From an uncultured Chryseobacterium sp. (GTDB taxonomy: Bacteria > Bacteroidota > Bacteroidia > Flavobacteriales > Weeksellaceae): 64,000 bases of DNA. The position numbers and the translations under genes are program-made. Shown one piece after another: positions 130 through 13,878 of the stretch. The notes under the pieces were generated by a model, which was not told where the DNA came from, did no database searches, and was given only the letters and a program-made list of their open reading frames with translations. The stretch's first letter is position 1, and every line of letters begins with the position of its first letter. The DNA lies in assembly GCA_913778085.1 (NCBI GenBank), contig CAJYXJ010000063.1, positions 1 through 64,000 on the forward strand, in the 5' to 3' direction.

Positions 130-588
130 TTAAAGATTTTCCCAGGTTGATTTTATCTTCTGCATCTTAACCAGATAAAAATACAGCGGAATCAATTCCA
201 GGCGTATTGTAAAGTTGATGTTCGGAACAGTGAACGGGATAATCACCATCATAATGATACAGACGGCAATCCCGATGAAGGCATCGATAATAGCAGCCTG
301 AGGTGCCCATTGCTGTTCAAACCAGAGTCCGTAGGCTACAATCCCCTTAAATACAAGTAACGCCGTTACAATGATCCCGGCTAAAGTATAAGGATGGGTA
401 GCGGTAATTCCGTAAAGCGATAAATTGATATGGTCCATAAATGGCCCGATGATTAAAAAAATAACGGAGAGTACACCTCCGATCAAAAAGAACCATAAAA
501 ATATTTTAATCCACAGGGGCAGCAAATTCCTTCTTCGGGTAAAATTTCCTTTCGTTTCAAACTCCTGAAAAGCTGAGCTTTCTTCCAT
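130..588 (-). CDS. Small integral membrane protein at the end of the ligase cluster
   Basis: 152 residues with a polar N-terminus of about 25 residues, then four hydrophobic segments (roughly 27-50, 62-85, 92-118 and 122-142). This is a polytopic inner-membrane protein. No family motif is recognised. The start lies only 18 bases after the stop of the ATP-grasp-like gene on the same strand, so it is probably the last gene of that transcript. It could export or sense the cluster's product, but nothing in the sequence proves this. Confidence 0.75.
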   Translation of the reverse strand: MEESSAFQEFETKGNFTRRRNLLPLWIKIFLWFFLIGGVLSVIFLIIGPFMDHINLSLYGITATHPYTLAGIIVTALLVFKGIVAYGLWFEQQWAPQAAIIDAFIGIAVCIIMMVIIPFTVPNINFTIRLELIPLYFYLVKMQKIKSTWENL

Positions 589-606
589 GTATATCAGTTT
601 TTAAAA

Positions 607-1791
607 TTATTCTTTTGCAAAAAAAGCATTTGAGCTCCCGATCCAGATCGCATCTTTTTTATTGAAGTCGACATTTACCATGGCGGCTTTGGTCATCCTT
701 CCCAGATTTTCAAGCAGAATGGGACGTTCGTCATTTTCACGCCAAATATACAATAATCTGATCTCCGCTTTGGAAAAATCTCCGTTAATATCTTCAAAAA
801 CCGGTTCGTACTGTACTTTCCGTTGTAGAATATAGTTTTCTTTGTCCTCAATAGCTTCAGTGATTTCTTTGGTCGGATTTAAATTGACGCCGCTTCCGGC
901 AAAGGAGAACAGAGGTTTCAATACAAAATCATCAAGATTTTCATGTTCCGGAAACTGGTGAAGAAAATAGCTTTTCGGGACAAACTGATGCTGTAAAAGC
1001 GGCAGCAGAAATTTGGAAATCTTAAAAAACCAATTCGGATGCGTTACCCACGTTACCTCAACATCTTCACGGAAGTCAAACTCCGTCTTCAGATCCGGGA
1101 TTCTGTCCAGCTCGTCGAAAATAACGCGGTTATAAATTCTTTTGATCTCCGTTAGCTTTCCATTGTTGTCGTAAAATAATTTTTTACCCTCTTTTATTAT
1201 TTTGGTCAGGCAAACCGTTTTAATGCCTAGCAAATGTTCCGTAAAGATAAAATCAATGGCTGTTTTCTGCTTTTCAGGATAAATTTCAAGAAGGACAACA
1301 TTTTCAGGATTTTCGTTGCCGACAATCAGTTCTTTTAAATAATTTTTAAAAGTCTCATCAGGTATTTTATTTCTGATCTCTGAAAGGAATGGATAAACTT
1401 CACAGAATGTATCTTCAAAAATCCTCTGGAAAGCATAAAGGGAAGGAAATGCCTGGAGCTCGATCAGTTGCGGTTCTATTTCTCCGTTTTCACTTCTGCA
1501 GATCCCGAAATCGATGGTAAAAAAATGCGGCTGATCCGTATCGTTCGGGACACGGCAATTTTCCGGGATGGCTTTTTGTAAAGTTTCCGGCGGTAAAGCT
1601 TTGATCTGGCCGATAATGCTCTCGCTGGCATTCAGGAGTTTAGATTCGAATTCTTTGGTCAGGAACAGCGGGCTTTCCGATATCCTGAATGCGGGCTCGA
1701 CACCGCTTTTTTCTTTTAGGATTTCCTTCAGCCGGGTATACTTTTCCGCTGAAAATTCCTGATTGAACTGCTTTCTGTATTTTGGGATCAT
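607..1791 (-). CDS. ATP-grasp-type ligase, glutathionylspermidine-synthase-like
   Basis: 394 residues. Near the N-terminus is FTIDFGI (91-97) followed by PQLIELQAFPS (107-117). At the C-terminal end FVLKPLFSFAGSGV (289-302) looks like the nucleotide-binding lysine and glycine-rich loop of an ATP-grasp. It is followed by LQRK (322-325), EIRLL (343-347) and ENLGR (361-365), candidates for metal and substrate contacts. This order resembles the rearranged ATP-grasp of glutathionylspermidine-synthase-like proteins. The inferred reaction is ATP-dependent amide-bond formation on an acyl phosphate; the substrate is unknown. It is the last enzyme of the minus-strand cluster, 75 bases after the glutamine amidotransferase gene. 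Confidence 0.7.
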   Translation of the reverse strand: MIPKYRKQFNQEFSAEKYTRLKEILKEKSGVEPAFRISESPLFLTKEFESKLLNASESIIGQIKALPPETLQKAIPENCRVPNDTDQPHFFTIDFGICRSENGEIEPQLIELQAFPSLYAFQRIFEDTFCEVYPFLSEIRNKIPDETFKNYLKELIVGNENPENVVLLEIYPEKQKTAIDFIFTEHLLGIKTVCLTKIIKEGKKLFYDNNGKLTEIKRIYNRVIFDELDRIPDLKTEFDFREDVEVTWVTHPNWFFKISKFLLPLLQHQFVPKSYFLHQFPEHENLDDFVLKPLFSFAGSGVNLNPTKEITEAIEDKENYILQRKVQYEPVFEDINGDFSKAEIRLLYIWRENDERPILLENLGRMTKAAMVNVDFNKKDAIWIGSSNAFFAKE

Positions 1792-1866
1792 ATCCTTTTT
1801 TCTTTTTGTGATTTAAAAAATCGGACAATGCGTGCCCGATTTTTCAAAATATATTAATGGCTATTG

Positions 1867-2700
1867 TTAAATTGTTGCCTGCGGCCGGTTCAGGATCTTC
1901 TGTTTTGCCATATTCAGGAATCGGGGAAGAATCTGAGCCTGTGTAAGGGTAATTTTATCTTCGTCATCAATTCTGTCGATGGTTTCAAGGTATTTTTCAA
2001 TTCCGAAATTCTCGATCATCGCCTGCTTATTTTTCTCGTCCTTCAGATTTTCGATCATACCTGCCGGATTTGCTTCCGGATGAAATTGTGTTCCGAAAAT
2101 CTCTTCTGAAAAACGGACGGCCATTACCGCTCTTTCCAGATTAATATGAGGACGCGATTTCTCAATGGCTGCGATTTTCATTTCCAATTCTTCAAGACGC
2201 TTATAATCAGGCTCAATAAACTGGAACGCTCTCGAATCCACTCCATAAAAAGGATCCGGTAAATTTTTAAGCAGAAAATCCTGTTCGCCTTCTTCGGTTT
2301 TATGAATCGGCATCACCCCAAAAGAATACGATTTCCTTCTGTTGATCGTTCCGAGCTTCCAGTGGATGCTGGCCAGCTGGAAAGAATGACAGATCAGAAA
2401 CAGGTATTTCTTATGGTCATTCGATTGATTATGCTGTAAAATACCATCCAGCAAAGCAGCAAAACGGTCTTCCCATTCTAGTCCTTCCCGGTGCGGATCG
2501 CCCGGCCCGCCTGATGAAATGAAGATATCAAAGTCCTTCATCGCTGGCATTTCATTCTTAAACCTTACATCAAATGTTTCAATACTTACCACTTCTTCCG
2601 TGCTTTGCTGAAAGGCTTCAGAGATTTCTTTAATATTCTTAAACCCCTGGTTTACCTGGTTATTGTTCATGTCCAGCAAAGCAATCCGTATATCCTTCAT
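1867..2700 (-). CDS. Class I glutamine amidotransferase domain protein
   Basis: 277 residues of the GATase-1 fold. SSGGPGDP (62-69) forms the oxyanion loop, ICHSFQLA (103-110) carries nucleophile Cys104, and GTQFHPEA (203-210) supplies His207 and Glu209, so the catalytic triad is intact. Such domains release ammonia from glutamine for a partner synthetase. No synthetase domain is fused, so the acceptor is probably one of the neighbouring ligases. The start lies 32 bases after the carboxylate-amine ligase stop. The C-terminal region (about 215-277) is charged and unassigned. A gamma-glutamyl peptidase role on a glutamylated product is the main alternative. Confidence 0.85.
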   Translation of the reverse strand: MKDIRIALLDMNNNQVNQGFKNIKEISEAFQQSTEEVVSIETFDVRFKNEMPAMKDFDIFISSGGPGDPHREGLEWEDRFAALLDGILQHNQSNDHKKYLFLICHSFQLASIHWKLGTINRRKSYSFGVMPIHKTEEGEQDFLLKNLPDPFYGVDSRAFQFIEPDYKRLEELEMKIAAIEKSRPHINLERAVMAVRFSEEIFGTQFHPEANPAGMIENLKDEKNKQAMIENFGIEKYLETIDRIDDEDKITLTQAQILPRFLNMAKQKILNRPQATI

Positions 2701-2732
2701 ACAACCTAATTTTTTGCAAAGTTACCGAAATA

Positions 2733-3851
2733 TTATAAAGCCGTTTCGCTGTGGGTGATTCCATACTCCGTTTCGGAGATCATATAATCTACCACTTTGG
2801 TAAGGTCGCCGGTCTCGTGGAATACCTTAAGCTGGCGGTCTGCACCTGTTCCGTTTTCCAGGATTGTCCAGGCATATTCCACTTCTTTACGGCATCCCAG
2901 ATCATCCACGACATCATCTATAAATTCCAGCAGCTCTCTTAACAAATCAGGATAAGGAACGGATTCTTCTTTACCAAAATCGATGAGGTGAGCTTCAATC
3001 CCGCTTTTGGAAGCCCTCCATTTATTCTCATTCAACAAAAGTCTGCGGTAGCTTCTGAAGCTTAGGTTCTGCTGGTGAAGTTTGTAGATTTTTGCGACCA
3101 ATGCCTGCATAATCGCTGCAAGGCACACGGTTTCATCGATTCTCAATGGCATATCACAGATCCTGAACTCAATGGTAGGGTAGAAAGGGTGAACCCGGAG
3201 ATCCCACCAGATTTTCTTCGCATTGTCTATGGTTCCTGTTTTTACCAGCAGATCAACATAGCTGTCAAATTCCGCCAAGGAATTGAAGAAGCTCGGAATC
3301 CCGGTTCTTGGGAATTTCACGAAAATTTCCTGGCGGTAGGATTTAAACCCTGTATTTCTTCCGATCCAGAAAGGAGAATTGGTCGACAGAGCGTAAACAT
3401 GCGGCAGAAAATATCGCATGACATTTTGTATTCTTACCCCTTCTTCACGGTTGGGTATACCAATGTGCACATGAAGCCCGAAGATCAGGTTGCCCCGGGC
3501 TACATCGCCCATGTCATCTACGATTTTATTGTAGCGTTCCCCATTTGTAATGGTGTTGTGTTCCCAGTTGGAAAAAGGATGCGTTCCGCCGCCGGAAACC
3601 CGAAGTCCCTGTTCATGAGCCGTTTTGATGAGATGCCTTCTCAGGTTTGTAAGCTCGGCTTTCGCCTCCTGAATGTTCTGGCAGATTCCCGTTTCCATCT
3701 CGATCATGGATTCGTGCATTTCGTGCTTTAAATTCTCACTTAAAACCGCTTTTCCGCCTTCGATAATTTTCGAAACATGAGAGATCAGGTCCCTGCTCTC
3801 AACATCAATGATCTGATATTCTTCTTCGATTCCGATAGTAAACTGATGCAT
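2733..3851 (-). CDS. Carboxylate-amine ligase, YbdK / GCS2 family
   Basis: 372 residues, the usual length for the YbdK family of glutamate-cysteine-ligase-like enzymes. Recognisable parts are the N-terminal FTIGIEEEYQ (4-13, glutamates that bind metal-ATP), GGGTHPFSNWEHN, a HVHIGI strand, and a late block containing PTIEFRICDMPLR. YbdK proteins show weak gamma-glutamyl-cysteine ligase activity; here the company of ATP-grasp enzymes and a glutaminase suggests a different amine or acid substrate. The gene follows the 317-residue ATP-grasp gene by 25 bases and is probably co-transcribed with it. Family assignment is firm, substrate unknown. Confidence 0.9.
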   Translation of the reverse strand: MHQFTIGIEEEYQIIDVESRDLISHVSKIIEGGKAVLSENLKHEMHESMIEMETGICQNIQEAKAELTNLRRHLIKTAHEQGLRVSGGGTHPFSNWEHNTITNGERYNKIVDDMGDVARGNLIFGLHVHIGIPNREEGVRIQNVMRYFLPHVYALSTNSPFWIGRNTGFKSYRQEIFVKFPRTGIPSFFNSLAEFDSYVDLLVKTGTIDNAKKIWWDLRVHPFYPTIEFRICDMPLRIDETVCLAAIMQALVAKIYKLHQQNLSFRSYRRLLLNENKWRASKSGIEAHLIDFGKEESVPYPDLLRELLEFIDDVVDDLGCRKEVEYAWTILENGTGADRQLKVFHETGDLTKVVDYMISETEYGITHSETAL

Positions 3852-3876
3852 TTTTTTTCGTGTTTTTTAGAGGTTT

Positions 3877-4830
3877 TTATTTTACAGAATCTTTTACAAA
3901 AGTTCCCCAGGAAATATTCGGTTTTCCGGGAACATATTCTTTTGCTTTTTCTACGGCTAATTTGGCAGCATGCTCCACGATCCAGGCAAAATTTTCTTCG
4001 CCTACCGAATTCCGGTCCGCATCGGGAGCGGGATTGCAGAAGTCGATTGCATAAGGGATTCCGTCACGTACGGCAAACTCTACCGTGTTAAAATCATATC
4101 CCAGTGCTTTATTCATTTTAATCGTATAATCTTGTATGGTTTTCAGCAGCTTTTGAAGTTCTTTTCCTGAAGTTTTATGAGTCGTTTCATATCTCAGGTG
4201 AGGCGCATTTCTAGGCTCGTAAGGCATGATGTGAACATATTTCTGACCCAGACAATACACGCGGTAATAATCGTCAAAAATAATTTCTTCCTGCACCATC
4301 ATTACCAGCTGCTCCGTTTCGCCCAATTTTGCCCAAAGGTCTTCCGGACTGTCCACCCGGTAAACGTTTCTCCAGCCGCCTCCGTCGTGAGGTTTCATGT
4401 ATGCCGGAAATCCTACGTAATCGAAAATATATTCCCAATCGTGAGGGAATTTCAGGTTTCTGAAAGACGTCTCCGAAGTATTGGTCGGTCTTTCGTGAGA
4501 AGGAAGCAATACGGTTTTCGGAAGAGGAATCCCAAGTTTCGTCATTAATGCATTGTTGAAAAACTTTTCGTCGGCACTCCACCAGAAAGGATTGTTAATG
4601 ACATACGTTCCGTTCAGTGCTGCATTTTTCAGGTAAGCCCGGTAAAAAGGAACGTCCTGCGAAATTCTGTCAATGATTACTGCATATCCGTAATCGGTAC
4701 CTTGTTCAAGTTTATCGATGTTTACAGGCTCGGCAACGATTTCCCCTTTACCGAGTTCATTCACTTTATCGATAAATGCCCATGGAAACGTATCTTCCAT
4801 CCCGAACAAAATTCCTACTTTTTTAGCCAT
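3877..4830 (-). CDS. ATP-grasp ligase, RimK / D-Ala-D-Ala-ligase-like
   Basis: 317 residues. An N-terminal pre-ATP-grasp region (1-90) is followed by the ATP-binding strand PAYMKPHDGGGW (142-153; Lys146, glycine loop 150-152), the hinge MMVQEE (177-182), and the metal-binding VEFAVRDG (250-257) and AIDFCNPAPD (261-270; Asp263, Asn266). All core ATP-grasp elements are therefore present and an active carboxylate-amine or thiol ligase is likely. Tight linkage to the YbdK-like gene (25 bases) suggests that the two enzymes add successive units to one molecule. The acid and amine substrates cannot be read from the sequence. Confidence 0.85.
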   Translation of the reverse strand: MAKKVGILFGMEDTFPWAFIDKVNELGKGEIVAEPVNIDKLEQGTDYGYAVIIDRISQDVPFYRAYLKNAALNGTYVINNPFWWSADEKFFNNALMTKLGIPLPKTVLLPSHERPTNTSETSFRNLKFPHDWEYIFDYVGFPAYMKPHDGGGWRNVYRVDSPEDLWAKLGETEQLVMMVQEEIIFDDYYRVYCLGQKYVHIMPYEPRNAPHLRYETTHKTSGKELQKLLKTIQDYTIKMNKALGYDFNTVEFAVRDGIPYAIDFCNPAPDADRNSVGEENFAWIVEHAAKLAVEKAKEYVPGKPNISWGTFVKDSVK

Positions 4831-5004
4831 AATGTATTTTTTAATGTTTTATATCAATGTTTATTTTATTAAACTTTTTAAAGTGAGATAATTTAAAAAA
4901 TCTTTGATTTTTATCTTTTAAGAACTGTTGATTATCTACAGTATCCCGAATAAACGTCTTTTGTGACTTTTATGATTGAATTTATAGTGTGACTTAAACA
5001 GGTT

Positions 5005-5718
5005 TTACGAAAAAAACGTCCCTATAAAGGTTGGAAACACCATTCTCCAGAGCGGCCAGTCGTGGTTGATCCATTTTCTTTCATCGTACCAGAAATCGAT
5101 TCCTTTTGAAGCAAGGATTTCTGCCATTTCTACATTCTTATCCCTGCAGATGTCCTGATCGGAAGTGCTTAGGACAATATGCATATGCCTGTATTTCCAA
5201 GCTTCATCATTCTTTACGAATTCCCTCGGACAGTTATAATACACCAGCTCATCGGAATAGCCGTCCATGAAATTTCTGATGCTGAAGGCTCCCGAGAGGC
5301 AGAATAAGTGCGACACAACATCAGGAAACCGGAAGGCAAAATTGGCCGCATGATATCCTCCGAAACTCGCTCCCGCTACGGCTACACGGTGTGTCTGATG
5401 CAGCTTCTGAACATATGGCACAAATTCCTTAATAAGAAACTGTATATATTTTTCGTAATTCCTGATTCGCTGCTGCGGCGGAATGCTTTCATCATAAAAG
5501 CTCCAGCTGTCGATTGTCTGGATATTGTAAAGCTTTACTTTTCCCTGTTCGACAAACCAGTTAATACTTCCGTTCAGCTGAAAATCATGGTTTTGGGTGT
5601 AAAGACCCTGTGAAGTCGGAAACATGATGATTGGATAGCCATAATGGCCCGTGACCTCAACTTTAAGGCTGGTTCCTAAGATATGTGAATAATAATCGGT
5701 ATGTTCTATTTTCGGCAT
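5005..5718 (-). CDS. Alpha/beta-hydrolase esterase (esterase D-like)
   Basis: 237 residues without a signal peptide, so probably cytoplasmic. The nucleophile elbow GASFGG (116-121) gives Ser118; an acid is likely in the STSDQDICRD segment and the catalytic His in KWINHDWPLW near the C-terminus. This matches the putative-esterase family that contains esterase D and enterochelin esterases. It lies between two ATP-grasp genes on the same strand, so it may hydrolyse an ester or amide made by the cluster, act as a thioesterase-like transferase, or cleave a protecting group. The 174-base gap on its downstream side contains no ORF that I would support. Confidence 0.85.
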   Translation of the reverse strand: MPKIEHTDYYSHILGTSLKVEVTGHYGYPIIMFPTSQGLYTQNHDFQLNGSINWFVEQGKVKLYNIQTIDSWSFYDESIPPQQRIRNYEKYIQFLIKEFVPYVQKLHQTHRVAVAGASFGGYHAANFAFRFPDVVSHLFCLSGAFSIRNFMDGYSDELVYYNCPREFVKNDEAWKYRHMHIVLSTSDQDICRDKNVEMAEILASKGIDFWYDERKWINHDWPLWRMVFPTFIGTFFS

Positions 5719-5833
5719 TTTTTGTTATTTGGAATTAAAAGGTAATCAAACCTTTGATTTGCTTTTGTTTTAAATCGATGGCAAAACTTAAATGACACCA
5801 GTTTTTTCATTTCCGGTGTATGACATTTAAAAG

Positions 5834-7045
5834 CTATGAGGTCGGTTTGTTTTTCGGAGGAAGGATATTCAGCATTTCGGCCTGGATTTTTTCAGCGGAC
5901 CTGTCCAGCCGTTCCTGGATGACCTCCGCATCCTTGGATTTATAGATGATGCCGACATGGTAATCAATAGGGAGAAATCGTACGGCTTCTTCGCATTCAA
6001 ACACACGGTAATCGGGCGTCTGATCTTTGATCAGTGCTATAATAAGTCCGGAATAATACCCGGTAGGTTTTGAAATGTTATAATCGTTTCCTTTCAGTAG
6101 GGCATCTTCAATTCTTGCCCATTCCCGCCATATATTGATGTTGCTTGAGGCTTCTACCAGATCAGGGATGTGGGCCCCTCCGACCCGTGATGATGTTTCA
6201 AGGAAATAATATTTACCGTTTTCCCGGCTTCTGATAAATTCGGTATGCGTAGCGCCATTCATCAGCCCGAAATTAGAAAGAACTTTTTCATTGGCCTTTT
6301 CCAACGCCTGAAATTCATCCGAATAACGCCCCAGAGTTTTGGTTCTGAAAACGCCGCCTTCATGCGAAACCTGCATCGGCGGAGCGAGATATTTTGAAGC
6401 GGAGGTGAAAACAATTTCTTTATTGAAAGTAAGGCTGTCTACATGATAAACATCACCGGGTTTGAAGCTTTCCAGCAGAAACAGGTGGCGTTCTTCTCCG
6501 AGATTATTGAGGGATTCCCAAAGTTCGTCTTTGGAAGATAATTTTTTGATTCCGGAGGCAGAGGCTTCCGAGCGTGGTTTAAGAACCCAGGGTGCAGGAA
6601 CCTTATCGGCAAAAGCATTTACCTCAGCGTTATTGAAAACAGCAGTAAATTCGGGCACGTTGATGCCGGAGTCCTTCGCTTTCTGGCGCATGGCCAGCTT
6701 ATCTCTGAAATAGCGGTGGGTAGTCTGGCCCATCCCGGGAATCCTGAAGGTTTCACGGATGAGGGCTGCCTTTTCCACATCATAATCATCGAGGGCAATT
6801 ACAGCATGTACTTTCCGGGTCTGCATCAGATGGGAAAATCCCTGGATCAGATGATCAAGATTCCATACCGACGGTTTAATTTCAGGCATGTAAAATACCT
6901 CGTCGATGGCGTGCCAGGGCCAGTTTTTTTCCTTAAGATTTTCAGATGTTACCAGAATGACTTTATTACCGAGTTTTTTCATTTCATCCATGAAATCATA
7001 ACCCTTGTAATAGCACGAAATACATACTATAGTTTTCTCCTCCAT
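5834..7045 (-). CDS. ATP-grasp ligase of the L-amino-acid ligase / carnosine synthase type
   Basis: 403 residues. N-terminal Rossmann-like domain (5-90, with the acidic IALDDYDVEKA), then the ATP-grasp core: WVLKPRSEASASGI (153-166; Lys156), LLESFKPGD (190-198) and the metal-binding pair THTEFI (266-271) and YYFLETSSRVGG (279-290; Glu283, Arg287). The pattern TEF...E.x.R.GG is typical of BacD, carnosine-synthase and biotin-carboxylase-like ATP-grasps that join free amino acids. A C-terminal domain of about 100 residues follows. This is the first ligase of the minus-strand cluster in transcript order, 140 bases after the aminopeptidase. Confidence 0.85.
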   Translation of the reverse strand: MEEKTIVCISCYYKGYDFMDEMKKLGNKVILVTSENLKEKNWPWHAIDEVFYMPEIKPSVWNLDHLIQGFSHLMQTRKVHAVIALDDYDVEKAALIRETFRIPGMGQTTHRYFRDKLAMRQKAKDSGINVPEFTAVFNNAEVNAFADKVPAPWVLKPRSEASASGIKKLSSKDELWESLNNLGEERHLFLLESFKPGDVYHVDSLTFNKEIVFTSASKYLAPPMQVSHEGGVFRTKTLGRYSDEFQALEKANEKVLSNFGLMNGATHTEFIRSRENGKYYFLETSSRVGGAHIPDLVEASSNINIWREWARIEDALLKGNDYNISKPTGYYSGLIIALIKDQTPDYRVFECEEAVRFLPIDYHVGIIYKSKDAEVIQERLDRSAEKIQAEMLNILPPKNKPTS

Positions 7046-7185
7046 ACAATGTTTTTGGTTTTTTAGTGAATTTTCAAAAATAAAAACGATTTTTTATTAA
7101 TTAATCAATGTTAAAAAATAAAATATCATGCACTTTTGTAAATCCTTTATCAATGATACAGAGAATTTTTGTAATAAACTAATTT

Positions 7186-8601
7186 TTAGTGATAATTTTC
7201 GATTAAATCTGCCAGCAGCTGCACGCCAAATCCGGTTGCCGCTTTTTCTTTGGCATAGCCTACATTTCCGAAAGCAACTCCGGCAATATCCAGATGGGCC
7301 CACCTTGTATGGTTTTCAATAAACTGTTCCAGGAACTTTGCAGCCACAATACAATCTCCGATCGGCTTCATGGAAATATTTTTAAGGTCGGCTACATCAG
7401 ATTGAATGTCTTCTTTCCAGATGTCCCAAAGTGGCAGGTTCCAAAGGCGTTGATTGGTTTTGTCTCCGGTTTTCAATAGAAGGTTTTTCAGCTCTTCATC
7501 ATTGGAAAACAGGGCTCCGCAGGTATCGCCGAACATCCGTACTGAACTTCCCGTTAAAGTGGCAAGATCAATCAGGAAATCGGTTTTGAAATTTTTAGAC
7601 AGATAAGAAAGTCCGTCTGCCAGGATCATCCGGCCTTCCGCATCAGTATTTAATACCTCGATGGTTTTTCCGTTGTAGGCGGTAATCACATCGCTTGGAA
7701 GAAAAGCTTTCTCTGAAATGGCATTATCGGTGATGGGCAGGACCGCTACAATATTCACCGGAAGCTGCATCTCGGCAGCATAGATCAATGTTCCCAGAAC
7801 AGCCGTTGCACCGCCCATATCCGATTTCATATAATGCATATTGTCCGGGTTTTTTAAAGAAATTCCGCCGGTATCGAACAGTACGCATTTTCCGACCAGT
7901 CCGAAGGTTTTGGCATTTTTAACGGCGGTTCTGTATTCCAGTATGGTAAAGGCGGCATCATAGGCGCTTCCCTGATTTACCGAAAGATAAGCCCCTAAGC
8001 CAAGCTCTTCACATTTTTTTCTGTTGAAAACCGTATACTTTAAATCATGCTTTTTGGCTAAATTTTTTAAGTATGAGCTGAAAACATCCGGTCTTTTAAG
8101 GTTGGCGGGTTTGTTCAGCCATTCCTGGCCGGCCGTCTGTCCGTTGCTGATTGCTTCCGCCTTTTTATTAATGTGATCCAATTTTTTCTGGCTTAAATTT
8201 TCAAAATGCAGCTCGAATTTAGGATTCCAGAAAGCATGGTTTTTTTCGAAAGGGTAGTGGTAGGTTCCGGTCAGCAGGCCTTTTGCAAATTCTTCAAATT
8301 GCCTTTCGTTCATAAAGTCCGCCAGCATCAGCGTCGGAACTGCCTGTACTTTTTCTTTTTGGATCTGGGCAAATTTTACCGCCACCTGCTGAATTTCAAA
8401 ATCCTGCAGTGCTGATTTTCCAAGTCCGACAAAATAGGTAGTGCCTTCTTCATGTACATTTATAAAAACTTCATATTTTTTCCCGGTAAAAAAAGTGGAA
8501 ATATTTCTATGGAAATTTTTTCCGGACTTCGTCCATTCCTCTTCTGTAAAAAGATGAAATACCTGCGTGTAATTTTTATTTTTTTTGTTGATGAGCTTCA
8601 T
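7186..8601 (-). CDS. M17 family leucyl aminopeptidase
   Basis: 471 residues, normal for the family. The C-terminal catalytic domain shows LVGKCVLFDTGG (235-246; metal ligands Lys238 and Asp243), Asp261, and the signature NTDAEGRMILADG (318-330; Asp320, Glu322, Arg324). The two-zinc site therefore looks complete. The enzyme removes N-terminal residues from short peptides in the cytoplasm. It begins 11 bases after the esterase stop and precedes the ATP-grasp gene, so it may trim or degrade the peptide-like product of the cluster as well as serve general peptide turnover. PepA and PepB type members cannot be separated here. Confidence 0.93.
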   Translation of the reverse strand: MKLINKKNKNYTQVFHLFTEEEWTKSGKNFHRNISTFFTGKKYEVFINVHEEGTTYFVGLGKSALQDFEIQQVAVKFAQIQKEKVQAVPTLMLADFMNERQFEEFAKGLLTGTYHYPFEKNHAFWNPKFELHFENLSQKKLDHINKKAEAISNGQTAGQEWLNKPANLKRPDVFSSYLKNLAKKHDLKYTVFNRKKCEELGLGAYLSVNQGSAYDAAFTILEYRTAVKNAKTFGLVGKCVLFDTGGISLKNPDNMHYMKSDMGGATAVLGTLIYAAEMQLPVNIVAVLPITDNAISEKAFLPSDVITAYNGKTIEVLNTDAEGRMILADGLSYLSKNFKTDFLIDLATLTGSSVRMFGDTCGALFSNDEELKNLLLKTGDKTNQRLWNLPLWDIWKEDIQSDVADLKNISMKPIGDCIVAAKFLEQFIENHTRWAHLDIAGVAFGNVGYAKEKAATGFGVQLLADLIENYH

Positions 8602-8612
8602 AATGTTAATTT

Positions 8613-9728
8613 TTAAATGCTGTTCTGCTTCGGTTTTACTTCTACAGGGTTTTCAATATTGTTGTAGTACAGCCACTCGATGGCTCTCGGAAATTCCTGC
8701 GACCAGTAGAATTCGCTGTGGGTACCTTCCGGGTTGATGCTGGTCCTGATCTCAAAATCAAACAGGCGGTTCTCTTCCCATCGTTTCAGTGATTCTTCAA
8801 AGGCATGGATCCGTTTTACCATTTTAGAACCTTCCTGACCGCCGCCGTAAAGATAAATTTTCGTTTTAAAAGGAATCCTGAAATTCATCATCGGGAAATT
8901 GTTATTCGGTTCTACCCAAAGAGAAGGAGAGAAGATCAAAAGCTTGGAGTAGACTTCCGGATAAAGAAAACCGCTGTAAATGCTGATCAGGGCACCAAGC
9001 GAGCTTCCGCCGATCCCTGTATTCTCACGGTCTCCCTTGGTACGGTAGTTCCGGTCTACAAAAGGTTTTAAAGTATCGGTAATGAAACGGATGTATTTCT
9101 TTCCTTCGGAGCCGTTGGCCACATGGTCGTTGTCAAAAATATATTCTTTAATCCGGTCGTCACTGCCGTGTTCGATGGCAATAATAATGATGTCACCGCG
9201 GCCATACTCCGTAAGAACGGAAAGTTTTTTATCAATTTCCCAGTTTCCGTAATCACTGCCTTCATTAAAAAGGTTTTGGGCATCCTGCAGATACAGTACG
9301 GGGTAGTTTTTATCCGAAGTATAATAGTCGTATGGCAGAAGTGCCCAGACTTTCCGGTAGCGGTCGAGCTGGGGGATATAAAATCTGTCCGAAATTATTT
9401 CAGCAATCGGAAAGTATTCAGTTTTAAAAGGCCCCCAGTTCAGCCTCCATTTTTCTACGGTGTTGGAAACGGTTCCTGCGGATTTCAATGCTTTCCGGTT
9501 CGGGGTAATATTTCCTTCTTGGTCCAACTCTACATTTTCCCAGCCGCCTTTTGTGAATTTGTATTCCACGAGACCCGGCAGCAGATGATCTTCAATTTCT
9601 ATAGAATATTGGTTGGTACCTTTCCGGATAAGACGGAAACGCTGGTCCCTTGGGTTCCAGCTGTTGAAATTCCCGGTGACGTAAATAATTCTTTCATCCT
9701 GTTCTGTGGTATGGAGTTCAAACTTCAT
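8613..9728 (-). CDS. Esterase with N-terminal CBM48/AMPK-like domain
   Basis: 371 residues in two parts. Residues 1-75 form a short beta domain with YVTGNFNSWNPRDQ (16-29) and EYKFTKGGW (55-63), the pattern of AMPK glycogen-binding and CBM48 modules. Residues 105-360 are an enterochelin-esterase/esterase D-like hydrolase with elbow GIGGSSLGAL (238-247; Ser243) and a late GTHSEFYW (His). No signal peptide is seen. It is the first gene of the minus-strand cluster and divergent from glgB, which begins 212 bases away with a similar NFNNWN motif. Whether it acts on a glucan ester, a siderophore-like ester or the cluster product is open. Confidence 0.85.
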   Translation of the reverse strand: MKFELHTTEQDERIIYVTGNFNSWNPRDQRFRLIRKGTNQYSIEIEDHLLPGLVEYKFTKGGWENVELDQEGNITPNRKALKSAGTVSNTVEKWRLNWGPFKTEYFPIAEIISDRFYIPQLDRYRKVWALLPYDYYTSDKNYPVLYLQDAQNLFNEGSDYGNWEIDKKLSVLTEYGRGDIIIIAIEHGSDDRIKEYIFDNDHVANGSEGKKYIRFITDTLKPFVDRNYRTKGDRENTGIGGSSLGALISIYSGFLYPEVYSKLLIFSPSLWVEPNNNFPMMNFRIPFKTKIYLYGGGQEGSKMVKRIHAFEESLKRWEENRLFDFEIRTSINPEGTHSEFYWSQEFPRAIEWLYYNNIENPVEVKPKQNSI

Positions 9729-9940
9729 CAGTGTCTTTACTAAAATTTAAAGGGATAAATTTATAAAAAATCTTTTTATGGCAAATAATTTCCTGAATCA
9801 TGGAAATACTGGATGAAAAACTTTATATTTGATAGAAACTAGCAACAGAAGCTGCTTAACATAATAATTAATTCACCCGTAATTAATATTGTTTGCCGGT
9901 ATTTTCCGTAGTTTCAAAAAATATAAAATAAATTAAAACC

Positions 9941-11893
9941 GTGATGAATTCGGTTAAAACATACACTCTTTTTACGGATCAGGACATTTATCTTTTCAGG
10001 GAAGGTAAACATTATAAGCTCTACGATAAGTTTGGAGCGCATTCAGCTGAAAAAGACGGGGTACAGGGCGTTTACTTCTCAGTCTGGGCACCCAATGCCA
10101 AAAAAGTTTCGGTACTCGGCAATTTTAACAACTGGAATCAGGACGGTCACATTTTATTTCCACGCTGGGATGGCTCCGGAATCTGGGAAGGATTTATTGC
10201 CGGCCTTACCTGGGGAACGCTGTATAAATATGCCATTGAAACTTACCGAGGAGAAATCCTGGAAAAAAGTGATCCGTATGCTTTAAGCTGGGAGCAGAAC
10301 CTGCAGGCGGCGTCACTTGTTTCCACGACCTGGTACGAGTGGCAGGACAAAGAATGGATGGAAAGCCGCTGGCAGAAAAATACCCTTAAGGCTCCCATTT
10401 CCGTCTATGAAATGCATGTAGGATCCTGGATGCGGGATGAATACAATCCGGAAAAATTTCTGAATTACCGTGATCTTGCCGCAAAGCTTATTCCCTATCT
10501 CAAAGAAATGGCTTTTACACATGTGGAATTTATGCCTTTGATGGAATATCCGTATGAGCCGAGCTGGGGCTACCAGATTACCGGGTTTTATGCCGCAACT
10601 TCACGCTTCGGTTCGCCGCAGGACCTGATGTTTCTGATCGACGAGCTTCACCGTAGCGGAATCGGGGTGATTCTAGACTGGGTGCCTTCACATTTTCCGG
10701 GGGATGCCAACGGTCTGCACCGGTTTGACGGTTCTTATTTATATGAGCATGAGGACCCGCGCAAAGGCTTCCATCCCGACTGGAAATCCTATATTTTCAA
10801 TTACGGAAGAAATGAAGTGAAATCCTTTCTGATTTCCAATGCCATGTTCTGGCTGGAACGTTATCATGCCGACGGATTGCGGGTAGATGCGGTAACGTCT
10901 ATGCTTCACCTGGATTATTCCCGGAATGAAGGAGAGTGGGAACCGAATATCTTCGGCGGAAACGTGAACCTGGAAGCCAAAACATTCCTTCAGGAGTTCA
11001 ATGCGGCAGTTTATAAAGAATTTGGCGATAACATCATTACCATTGCGGAAGAGAGCTCCGATTTTCCGATGCTTACCAAACCCGTTCATGACGGCGGCGT
11101 AGGTTTCGGGATGAAATGGATGATGGGCTGGATGCACGATACACTGGCTTATTTTAAGGAAGATCCCATCGACAGGAAATTCTTCCACCATAAGCTGACT
11201 TTCGCTTCCATGTATATGTACAACGAGAATTACATGATGCCGTTGTCACACGACGAAGTGGTGCATGGAAAAGCAAGTATGATTTATAAAATGAAAGGTG
11301 ACGAATGGCAGAAATTTGCGAATCTCCGCGCCCTTTATGTCTATATGTTTACACATCCGGGAGCAAAGCTGCTTTTTATGGGCGATGAATTCGGACAGAC
11401 GAGCGAATGGAATTTCAAGAAAAGCCTGGATTGGCATCTGCTGAATTTCCCAGTCCACAAAGGATTGCAGACCTTGGTAAAGGATCTGAACCGTCTTTAT
11501 CGCGAAGAAACGGCCTTTTACGAAAACCAGTTCAGCCCGGAAGGTTTTGAATGGGTGGAAGCGGATGATGCGGATAACTCGCTGTATATTTATTTAAGGA
11601 AAGGAAAAAAGAAAGAGGATGTCCTAATGGTTATCCTGAATTTAACACCAAGGGTTTTGGATTATAAGATCGGAGTAGATGCCGCAAGCCGTTGGGAGAT
11701 TATTTTCAATTCCGATGATGAAAAATACGCGGGAAGCGGGGTGGAGCCGGATATTTTCAGGGAAGATCAGGAAGAATTTAAAGGACATAAAAAATCCATC
11801 AGCATTAAGCTGCCACCGCTGGCCGGAGTGGTTTTAAGAAGGAAGCCGAAAAAATATAAGCAGAGCAGGATTAATCAACATAAAAAATCATGA
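9941..11893 (+). CDS. glgB: 1,4-alpha-glucan branching enzyme
   Basis: 650 residues. An N-terminal CBM48 domain (KVSVLGNFNNWNQDG) is followed by a GH13 barrel with GLRVDAV (nucleophile Asp near 316), IAEESSD (acid Glu near 370) and LSHDEVVHGK, then a C-terminal beta domain. It moves short alpha-1,4 chains to alpha-1,6 branch points during glycogen synthesis in the cytoplasm. The start is one of two adjacent ATGs (9,941 or 9,944). The stop TGA overlaps the ATG of the next gene, so the two are translationally coupled. It is the first gene of the glycogen group. Confidence 0.96.
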   Translation: MMNSVKTYTLFTDQDIYLFREGKHYKLYDKFGAHSAEKDGVQGVYFSVWAPNAKKVSVLGNFNNWNQDGHILFPRWDGSGIWEGFIAGLTWGTLYKYAIETYRGEILEKSDPYALSWEQNLQAASLVSTTWYEWQDKEWMESRWQKNTLKAPISVYEMHVGSWMRDEYNPEKFLNYRDLAAKLIPYLKEMAFTHVEFMPLMEYPYEPSWGYQITGFYAATSRFGSPQDLMFLIDELHRSGIGVILDWVPSHFPGDANGLHRFDGSYLYEHEDPRKGFHPDWKSYIFNYGRNEVKSFLISNAMFWLERYHADGLRVDAVTSMLHLDYSRNEGEWEPNIFGGNVNLEAKTFLQEFNAAVYKEFGDNIITIAEESSDFPMLTKPVHDGGVGFGMKWMMGWMHDTLAYFKEDPIDRKFFHHKLTFASMYMYNENYMMPLSHDEVVHGKASMIYKMKGDEWQKFANLRALYVYMFTHPGAKLLFMGDEFGQTSEWNFKKSLDWHLLNFPVHKGLQTLVKDLNRLYREETAFYENQFSPEGFEWVEADDADNSLYIYLRKGKKKEDVLMVILNLTPRVLDYKIGVDAASRWEIIFNSDDEKYAGSGVEPDIFREDQEEFKGHKKSISIKLPPLAGVVLRRKPKKYKQSRINQHKKS

Positions 11894-12453
11894 TTCAGGC
11901 ATCAGACGTTTTGGGAAAGGACTATAAAGAGTTTGAGAAATATATTGTAAGACGTGATTTTGGTGCAGAAGCATTAAAATCTTTCTCTAAACAAGGTATT
12001 CATCCTCCTTTAACTGAAGCGATATTTAATGTAGAATTATACTTTAATACTTTTAAAATTGAAAGATATAAAGTGCGTTTTTTCGAAAACAAAATATTCA
12101 GTATTCAATTTATAGCGGATGAATATGATTCAGTAAATATGATTCAGAATCTCATTAATCAAGACTCTTTTATTTTTAAGTTTTATACTAACAAACAGCT
12201 AAAAGAAACAGAATGGATAGATAAAGGTGCGGATTTTAAAGGAGGGTTCACGGAATGGAAAATTAAAAAATTTGATTTTGATGGATCTTCTGTATTTAAT
12301 ATTGAGTCTCTCGGAGATTATGGGTTGATTACATTTTACTCCCAACAAATGAGTATCATGGTAAAAAGCCATGTTATGGATGAGGGTGCTTTTTATTTGT
12401 TTGAATTACAAGCAGATATTCATATTTTTAAAAATGATTTTCAAAATAATTAA
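11890..12453 (+). CDS. Unknown protein between glgB and glgA
   Basis: 187 residues, soluble, rich in Phe, Ile, Lys and Asp, with no signal peptide, membrane segment or recognised domain. It starts in the ATGA overlap with the glgB stop and ends 18 bases before glgA, so it is part of the glycogen transcript. Its base composition is clearly more A+T-rich than glgB or glgA, and its codon choice differs. It may have been acquired and kept in frame. The size and composition resemble small immunity-type or stand-alone unknown proteins, but no function can be assigned. Confidence 0.75.
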   Translation: MIQASDVLGKDYKEFEKYIVRRDFGAEALKSFSKQGIHPPLTEAIFNVELYFNTFKIERYKVRFFENKIFSIQFIADEYDSVNMIQNLINQDSFIFKFYTNKQLKETEWIDKGADFKGGFTEWKIKKFDFDGSSVFNIESLGDYGLITFYSQQMSIMVKSHVMDEGAFYLFELQADIHIFKNDFQNN

Positions 12454-12471
12454 TTAAGTTTAATAAAAAAG

Positions 12472-13878
12472 ATGACAGTATTTCACATCAGTACAGAATG
12501 TTATCCAGTGGCAAAAGTAGGAGGGCTGGCCGATGTAGTAGGGGCTTTGCCTAAATATCAGAATAAAATTAAAGGAGTTGATGCGAAGGTGGTTATGCCC
12601 TGGTACAACAAATCTTTCGTTTATGACCATGAATTTGACATAGTTTTTGATGGTTTCATCCATCAGGGGCCAAACATGCTGCAGGTGCAGGTTTTAAAGG
12701 AAAAATCAAACGCTTTAGGATTTGAATTGTACATGGTCAGAATCCCGGGATTGCTAGATCGTGACAACCCTTACGGTTACCAGGATGAGAACTTTCAGTT
12801 TATCGGTTTTCAGCATGGTGTGCTTCACTGGCTCAGTGCGATGCAGATCCGTCCGGATGTTCTGCACTGCCACGATTATCATACGGGGCTGATTCCTTTT
12901 ATGGTGGAACATTGCTGGGAATTTTCTTTTCTGAAAGGCGTAAAAACCATAGCTACCATCCATAATGGCGAATACCAGGGAATGATGAGCTGGGAAATGG
13001 CCAATTATATTCCTTCTTTCGACCGGTACAAATGGGGTCTGATGGATTGGGAAGGGCTGATCAATCCTTTGGCCAGCATGATTAAATGTTCCCATGCTTT
13101 TACTACGGTTTCTCAAGGATATATGGAAGAACTTTTTATCAGCTTCCGCGGATTGGAGAGCCTGGTGCGTGAAGAATTCGGAAAAGCCTACGGAATTATC
13201 AACGGAATTGATACCGAAGTCTGGAATCCCGAAACCGACCCGATGCTGGATTTTAATTTCAATAAGAAAAATGCGGTAGCCATGAAGAAAAAGAATAAAG
13301 AAAAGCTTTGTAAAGAATACGGTTTACGGCCTGAATTGCCGCTGTTTGCCTTTATCGGGAGATTTGCTACGGAAAAAGGAGCAGATTTCCTGCCGGACGT
13401 CGTCTGGAGAAGCATCACACAGACTCATGGCGCCTTAAACGTTATGATTCTCGGATCAGGAAATTCATTCATTGAAAATAAGCTGAAGGAATACGATTAT
13501 ATTTACAGCAATTTCGCGCTGGACCTCGGATATAAGGAATATCTTTCACATAAAATATACGCTTCGGCGGACTTTTTGCTGATGCCATCGAGGGTAGAGC
13601 CCTGCGGACTGAACCAGATGTATTCGATGAGATACGGTACGGTTCCGGTCGTAAGATATACAGGTGGTCTGCGGGATACGGTAAACGATATCTCGACCGG
13701 CGGGGCAGGATTAAATTTTACGTTTCCCGGCGTTGACGATATTCTCCATGCGATGAACAGAGCCTTACTGGTATATAACCAAAAAGGGACAATGGAAAAC
13801 CTGATCCGCGCCAATATGAATTTTGATTTTGCATGGGAAAAATCTGCTGAAAAGTATATTAATTTGTATAAAAACTAA
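12472..13878 (+). CDS. glgA: Glycogen (starch) synthase
   Basis: 468 residues of the GT5 family. N-terminal KVGGLADVVGALPK (from residue 15) is the ADP-glucose-binding KxGGL loop; the C-terminal domain has EPCGLNQMYSMRYGTVP followed by TGGLRDTV, typical of the retaining catalytic site. It elongates alpha-1,4-glucan using ADP-glucose made by GlgC, encoded just downstream. The order glgB, unknown gene, glgA, glgC on one strand supports an operon for carbon storage. Confidence 0.96.
   Translation: MTVFHISTECYPVAKVGGLADVVGALPKYQNKIKGVDAKVVMPWYNKSFVYDHEFDIVFDGFIHQGPNMLQVQVLKEKSNALGFELYMVRIPGLLDRDNPYGYQDENFQFIGFQHGVLHWLSAMQIRPDVLHCHDYHTGLIPFMVEHCWEFSFLKGVKTIATIHNGEYQGMMSWEMANYIPSFDRYKWGLMDWEGLINPLASMIKCSHAFTTVSQGYMEELFISFRGLESLVREEFGKAYGIINGIDTEVWNPETDPMLDFNFNKKNAVAMKKKNKEKLCKEYGLRPELPLFAFIGRFATEKGADFLPDVVWRSITQTHGALNVMILGSGNSFIENKLKEYDYIYSNFALDLGYKEYLSHKIYASADFLLMPSRVEPCGLNQMYSMRYGTVPVVRYTGGLRDTVNDISTGGAGLNFTFPGVDDILHAMNRALLVYNQKGTMENLIRANMNFDFAWEKSAEKYINLYKN

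Follow-up and report, generated by a model that had tools for sequence, protein, structure and literature searches.

Operons combining several amidoligases, of the same general kind as the cluster described here, were reportedly predicted from comparative genomics by Iyer and colleagues in 2009, and PuuA/PuuD and BtrJ/BtrG are gamma-glutamyl protection systems. We analysed an amide-ligase cluster in a 64,000-nucleotide stretch (hereafter the window) of an uncultured Chryseobacterium sp. (GenBank assembly GCA_913778085.1, contig CAJYXJ010000063.1), which starts with the first base of a contig 81,023 bases long. The nine genes of the cluster, g1 to g9, all lie on the minus strand and are read from g9 to g1. 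Comparison across Bacteroidota resolves them into two modules, a five-gene core (g6 to g2) and a separable three-gene module (g7 to g9, module 2), while g1 is not conserved. Core genes co-occur genome by genome even when they are unlinked, and we consider it probable, if by no means assured, that the cluster encodes an intracellular non-ribosomal pathway for the synthesis and turnover of a small metabolite with amide links, peptide-like in kind.

The core opens with g6 (positions 5005 to 5718), a PF00756 serine esterase in which Ser118 is kept in 90 of 91 homologues and His219 in all 91. It is followed by g5 (3877 to 4830), a RimK/LysX-fold ATP-grasp ligase and the member kept most widely, g4 (2733 to 3851), a YbdK/GCS2 carboxylate-amine ligase, g3 (1867 to 2700), a cysteine enzyme with the class I glutamine amidotransferase (GATase) fold, and finally g2 (607 to 1791), an ATP-grasp ligase of the GspS/YgiC fold. 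The assignment of g4 draws on two profiles (TIGR02050, 306 bits with a cut-off of 176.4; PRK13515, 537.8 bits with a cut-off of 371) and on matches to PDB 1tt4 and 1r8g. For g5 an ATP-grasp fold of RimK type was found, with RimK the closest fold, at a score below the TIGR00768 (RimK family) cut-off (33.5 versus 143.4 bits); likewise, g2 has a synthetase fold of GspS type and lies under the Pfam GSP_synth cut-off (19.1 versus 29.3 bits). The triad of g3 (C104, H207 and E209) is kept at all three positions in 93 of 93 homologues, and the protein, likely a hydrolase, amidotransferase or acyltransferase, scores under the curated amidotransferase equivalog cut-offs (best 44 versus 264 bits). With the g3 profile, a weak match (E 0.00034) was obtained to homoserine O-succinyltransferase (2vdj), an acyl-transferring relative sharing the g3 fold.

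Module 2 consists of g9 (8613 to 9728), a PF00756 esterase with weak N-terminal similarity to AMPK1_CBM (Ser243 and His337 in 26 of 26 homologues), g8 (7186 to 8601), which resembles M17 leucyl aminopeptidases (K238, D243, K250, D261, D320, E322 and R324 in 34 of 34), and g7 (5834 to 7045), an ATP-grasp protein resembling L-amino acid ligases, with sequence matches to two of these (PDB 4wd3, E 2.3e-18; PDB 3vot, E 7.8e-8) and K156, E283 and R287 present in 52 of 52 homologues. Judged by residue conservation, the active sites are intact. The nine open reading frames (ORFs), with their coordinates, families and active sites, are all as an earlier, sequence-only reading of this DNA had described them.

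Gene order was assessed at the 80 closest loci in named genomes out of at least 591 g5 relatives, a selection that favours close relatives, and 62 of these had enough flanking DNA for core order to be judged. The order g6-g5-g4-g3-g2 on one strand was found at 57 of the 62, the exceptions being L174, L181, L183, L207 and L210; at two loci excluded by the flank rule (L163 and L205) no g4 lies between g5 and g3. The conforming loci include Weeksellaceae, Maribacter and its kin, Dyadobacter, Hymenobacter, Mucilaginibacter and one Saprospiraceae record. A second set of 59 loci was picked across families (57 from 108 g5 matches in 296 genomes and two from a within-family scan); here the full core occurs at 13 loci, g5-c5-g3 with or without g6 at 11 (c5 being a circularly permuted ATP-grasp protein), and other partial cores at 20. 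At four of the 59, a gene resembling M29 peptidases occupies the position of g3 between g4 and g2, and g3 is found nowhere else in those genomes. The system often carries an additional PF00756-type esterase, since a divergent esterase, less than 45% identical to g9, is encoded on the other strand at 38 of the 80 named loci (within L156-L212).

Module 2 is joined to the core in Weeksellaceae and usually located elsewhere in other families. Of 54 evaluable named loci, 19 have g7 upstream in the same orientation, three have it on the opposite strand or downstream, and in the other 32 it is out of reach. The module often stays together away from the core: in 20 further regions around g7 (two of which, L222 and L232, have no g7 ORF in the ORF map), g8 adjoins in 10 and g9 as well in nine. 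The remaining gene, g1 (130 to 588), encodes a 152-residue membrane protein with four hydrophobic stretches and without a family match; it stands outside the conserved system, being found at three of 80 named and two of 59 family-spread loci. The single nine-gene unit proposed earlier therefore gives way to a core plus a separable module.

We assessed whether the genes also travel together at the genome level in a sample of 296 Bacteroidota genomes, with E-value limits set per query (1e-20 for g5 and g4, 1e-10 for g2, 1e-40 for g7, 1e-30 for c5 and 1e-15 for g3). Carriers numbered 108 for g5, 103 for g4, 92 for g2, 70 for g3, 66 for g7 and 16 for c5; within the window's own family, g5 occurs in 21 of 60 genomes. 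Genomes with another member generally had g5 (89 of 92 with g2, Fisher p 3.1e-52; 91 of 103 with g4, p 1.4e-44; 69 of 70 with g3, p 6.3e-38; 66 of 66 with g7, p 1.9e-37; all p values ignore shared ancestry). Conversely, 17 of the 108 g5 genomes were without g4, 39 without g3 and 42 without g7. Because many of the co-occurring genes are on other contigs or far apart, linkage does not explain their co-occurrence. Distance matrices of the five core proteins correlated across 48 loci (r 0.84 to 0.94, without a control gene), which fits the prediction of joint inheritance. The coupling of these genes claimed in the sequence-only reading is thus borne out with respect to g5, including where the genes are unlinked. 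That reading had named genes lying apart in related genomes as evidence against a cluster; such separation is literally found in several families, and the coupling survives it, since co-occurrence of the unlinked genes persists genome by genome.

Exactly one of g2 or c5 was present in 103 of the 108 g5 genomes, so that one ligase step is probably interchangeable between them, and g5 together with either one forms a near-constant pair. We tentatively suggest, as a reading that may well prove wrong, that the core makes a metabolite used across Bacteroidota, either an intracellular cofactor-like or a reserve compound, with the YgiC-like g2 and c5 performing the same step in different lineages.

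In the favoured non-ribosomal pathway, enzyme families suggest a relay whose order and substrates we infer. The YbdK ligase g4 would form a glutamyl-type amide, to which the RimK-fold ligase g5 would add a further amino acid or amine, and g2 or its stand-in c5 would join an amine to the growing chain at its carboxylate. The cysteine enzyme g3 may remove or transfer an acyl group in the manner of a gamma-glutamyl hydrolase, and the esterase g6 may remove an ester. In module 2, g7 would supply a dipeptide that g8 and g9 would degrade. None of the eight enzymes (g2 to g9) has a hydrophobic 19-residue segment in a simple hydropathy scan, which is not a signal-peptide predictor; with no membrane-like segment and no conserved precursor in the spacers, the evidence favours intracellular synthesis of a compound from free acids and amines.

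Several observations weigh against this pathway or its details. Fold does not show specificity, and no member has a known substrate. The Fisher values are uncorrected for kinship, and plain vertical descent would also yield correlated distances. In four g5 genomes both g2 and c5 are absent, three g2 genomes and 12 g4 genomes lack g5, and g5 stands without any adjoining core gene at 15 of the 59 family-spread loci. Since c5 sits at the place of g4 and 8 of the 16 c5 genomes are also without g4, c5 may stand in for g2, g4 or both. The product may also not stay in the cell: at one locus (L103:4853-10393), g5 and g4 are separated by genes for a TetR regulator and for HlyD and MFS exporters in the same orientation, which makes export of the product possible at that locus, this exporter pair being the one noted beside the system, with exporters not sought elsewhere. 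In the window, the cluster itself includes a membrane protein, g1. Finally, the target may be a host protein instead of a metabolite, which we regard as unlikely yet deserving of weight.

A protein target is the strongest rival. Here the RimK-like g5 and the other ligases would attach amino acids or an amine to a protein of the host, from which the peptidases and g3 would remove them; RimK, the closest fold to g5, adds glutamates to a ribosomal protein, and enzymes of synthesis and removal do stand side by side. However, apart from the core, module 2 and the additional esterases, every gene family near the system occurs at 15 of the 80 named loci at most. A fixed substrate protein is thus not seen next to the core, though one may be encoded elsewhere, and in our judgement four ligases and two esterases exceed the needs of a tag.

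A thiol or polyamine conjugate resembling glutathione or glutathionylspermidine, with g4 acting like GshA, g5 or g7 like GshB, and g2 like GspS, appears rather improbable. BshC of bacillithiol synthesis was present in 40 of 40 genomes tested, whether or not they had the system, and the DS family was about as frequent with g5 (17 of 21 genomes) as without it (15 of 19). The GspS-like step is further questioned by YgiC itself, which according to Sui et al. 2012 (cited in PMC12506659) lacks glutathionylspermidine synthase activity.

Still less probable is a nitrogen or carbon reserve metabolism tied to cyanophycin and glycogen. Genes for cyanophycin synthetase, cyanophycinase and an Asparaginase_2 protein are indeed found immediately beyond the core in loci of the Chryseobacterium type, with genes on the other side of the cluster that are presumably glgB- and glgA-like (read by eye from translations). 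Most other genera nevertheless have different neighbours, and cyanophycin synthetase exceeded its cut-off in 6 of 21 g5 genomes versus 2 of 19 without g5. That the enzymes are unrelated chance neighbours, each serving its own known pathway, is very improbable: g7 to g9 and single core genes do lie apart in several families, but the conserved core order contradicts this explanation, as does the genome-level co-occurrence that persists when genes are unlinked.

The spacers were inspected for precursor peptides and for regulatory sequence. Ligases of the YbdK and GspS types are not known among graspetide enzymes. Six small ORFs (18-95 amino acids) occur in the spacers of the window. Two fall within, or span, the g8 end and the conserved spacer between g8 and g7, one (9883-9966) has weak matches at 7 of 14 loci with internal stops in four of those, and three have matches at 0 to 2 loci. 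No conserved precursor-peptide ORF was therefore found in the window's spacers, the rest of the genome not having been searched, and the earlier claim that they hold no precursor stands, with matches explained by the g8 end or the g8-g7 spacer, or broken by stops. A ribosomally made, ATP-grasp-modified peptide (graspetide) cluster is accordingly the least credible explanation and barely so at all, even though ATP-grasp ligases are present and PMC8939145 places graspetides in Chryseobacterium, because none of the window's spacer ORFs shows conservation as an independent peptide.

The g8-g7 spacer (7046 to 7185, minus strand; 140 bases) is a candidate leader or internal promoter by virtue of its conserved length and sequence. 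Spacer lengths were measured at 23 Weeksellaceae loci (L160 was left out). This spacer is 140 or 141 bases long in the window and at 11 of 12 measured loci titled Chryseobacterium; at the twelfth, a metagenome-assembled genome (L151), it is 780 bases, and it varies in other genera. At the same 11 loci, the g7-g6, g6-g5 and g3-g2 spacers range from 24 to 314, 38 to 295 and 45 to 212 bases, respectively, and the short g5-g4 and g4-g3 spacers are likewise narrow in length range. Copies of the g8-g7 spacer are 70 to 89% identical to that of the window, compared with 58 to 61% for shuffled copies, and a related form occurs at three Kaistella loci. Within the conserved stretch (7036-7185, minus strand), a motif close to the 5' end is able to pair with the start codon of g7 in four of four sequences folded (folding z -1.98, -1.21, -1.34 and -3.33). 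As the spacer is conserved, nearly fixed in length and able to pair with the g7 start, an internal promoter or leader before g7 is plausible; the single nine-gene transcript considered earlier becomes less certain.

Other neighbours were recorded around the system and its separate members. A distant g5 relative (41% identity) adjoins two squalene/phytoene synthase genes (L130:6653-10392), pointing to a possible second role for the g5 family. At six of 10 loci with g2 alone (L233-L238), g2 adjoins a gene of the same cluster, whose searched member (L234) is Amidohydro_3; such a gene is a possible further partner. A same-cluster gene likewise adjoins g4 at solo g4 loci L243-L245 (searched member, L244: a Peptidase_S10 serine carboxypeptidase) and g9 at module 2 loci L214-L216 (searched member, L216: AceK, isocitrate dehydrogenase kinase/phosphatase). 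Glycogen-type and cyanophycin-type genes flank the Chryseobacterium cluster (L133:15566-20201; window 9941-13878), and an ORF between the glgB- and glgA-like genes of the window (11890-12453, plus strand) is without a Pfam or NCBIfam match. Anti-phage defence was also considered and is disfavoured, as neither the nine window proteins nor c5 matched any PADLOC model.

Every enzyme family in the cluster is already known. A literature search judged by titles and abstract starts did not find the g6-g5-g4-g3-g2 operon, nor any function for it, in agreement with the earlier view of the product as uncharacterised. This ATP-costly amide-ligase set occurs in about one third (108 of 296) of the Bacteroidota genomes in the sample, and its product is probably worth keeping, because the set is co-inherited even when scattered. 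Co-occurrence and the mutual exclusion of g2 and c5 define a minimal gene set that makes the orphan pathway directly testable, and we regard the cluster as a high-value, well-defined orphan pathway.

Compared with known enzymes, g4 passes two curated cut-offs of the YbdK carboxylate-amine ligases, from which it differs in sharing an operon with two other ligases. The ligase g5 has 14 to 19% identity to RimK, LysX and ArgX, and g2 has 12 to 16% identity to E. coli YgiC, YjfC and GspS and no amidase domain. Unlike the L-amino acid ligases 4wd3 and 3vot, g7 is frequently associated with an esterase and a peptidase of the M17 family, and it is accompanied by g5 in all 66 sampled genomes that have it. 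As in PuuA/PuuD and BtrJ/BtrG, a glutamyl ligase is paired with a putative glutamate-removing enzyme; the enzyme families differ, however, making this an analogy only. The amidoligase operons reportedly predicted by Iyer and colleagues likewise place multiple non-ribosomal amide ligases alongside peptidases and hydrolases in gene neighbourhoods that are conserved. The present system shares both features: it keeps several amide ligases together in a conserved neighbourhood, and these are coupled to peptidases with unrelated folds, namely M17, M29 and GATase-fold enzymes.
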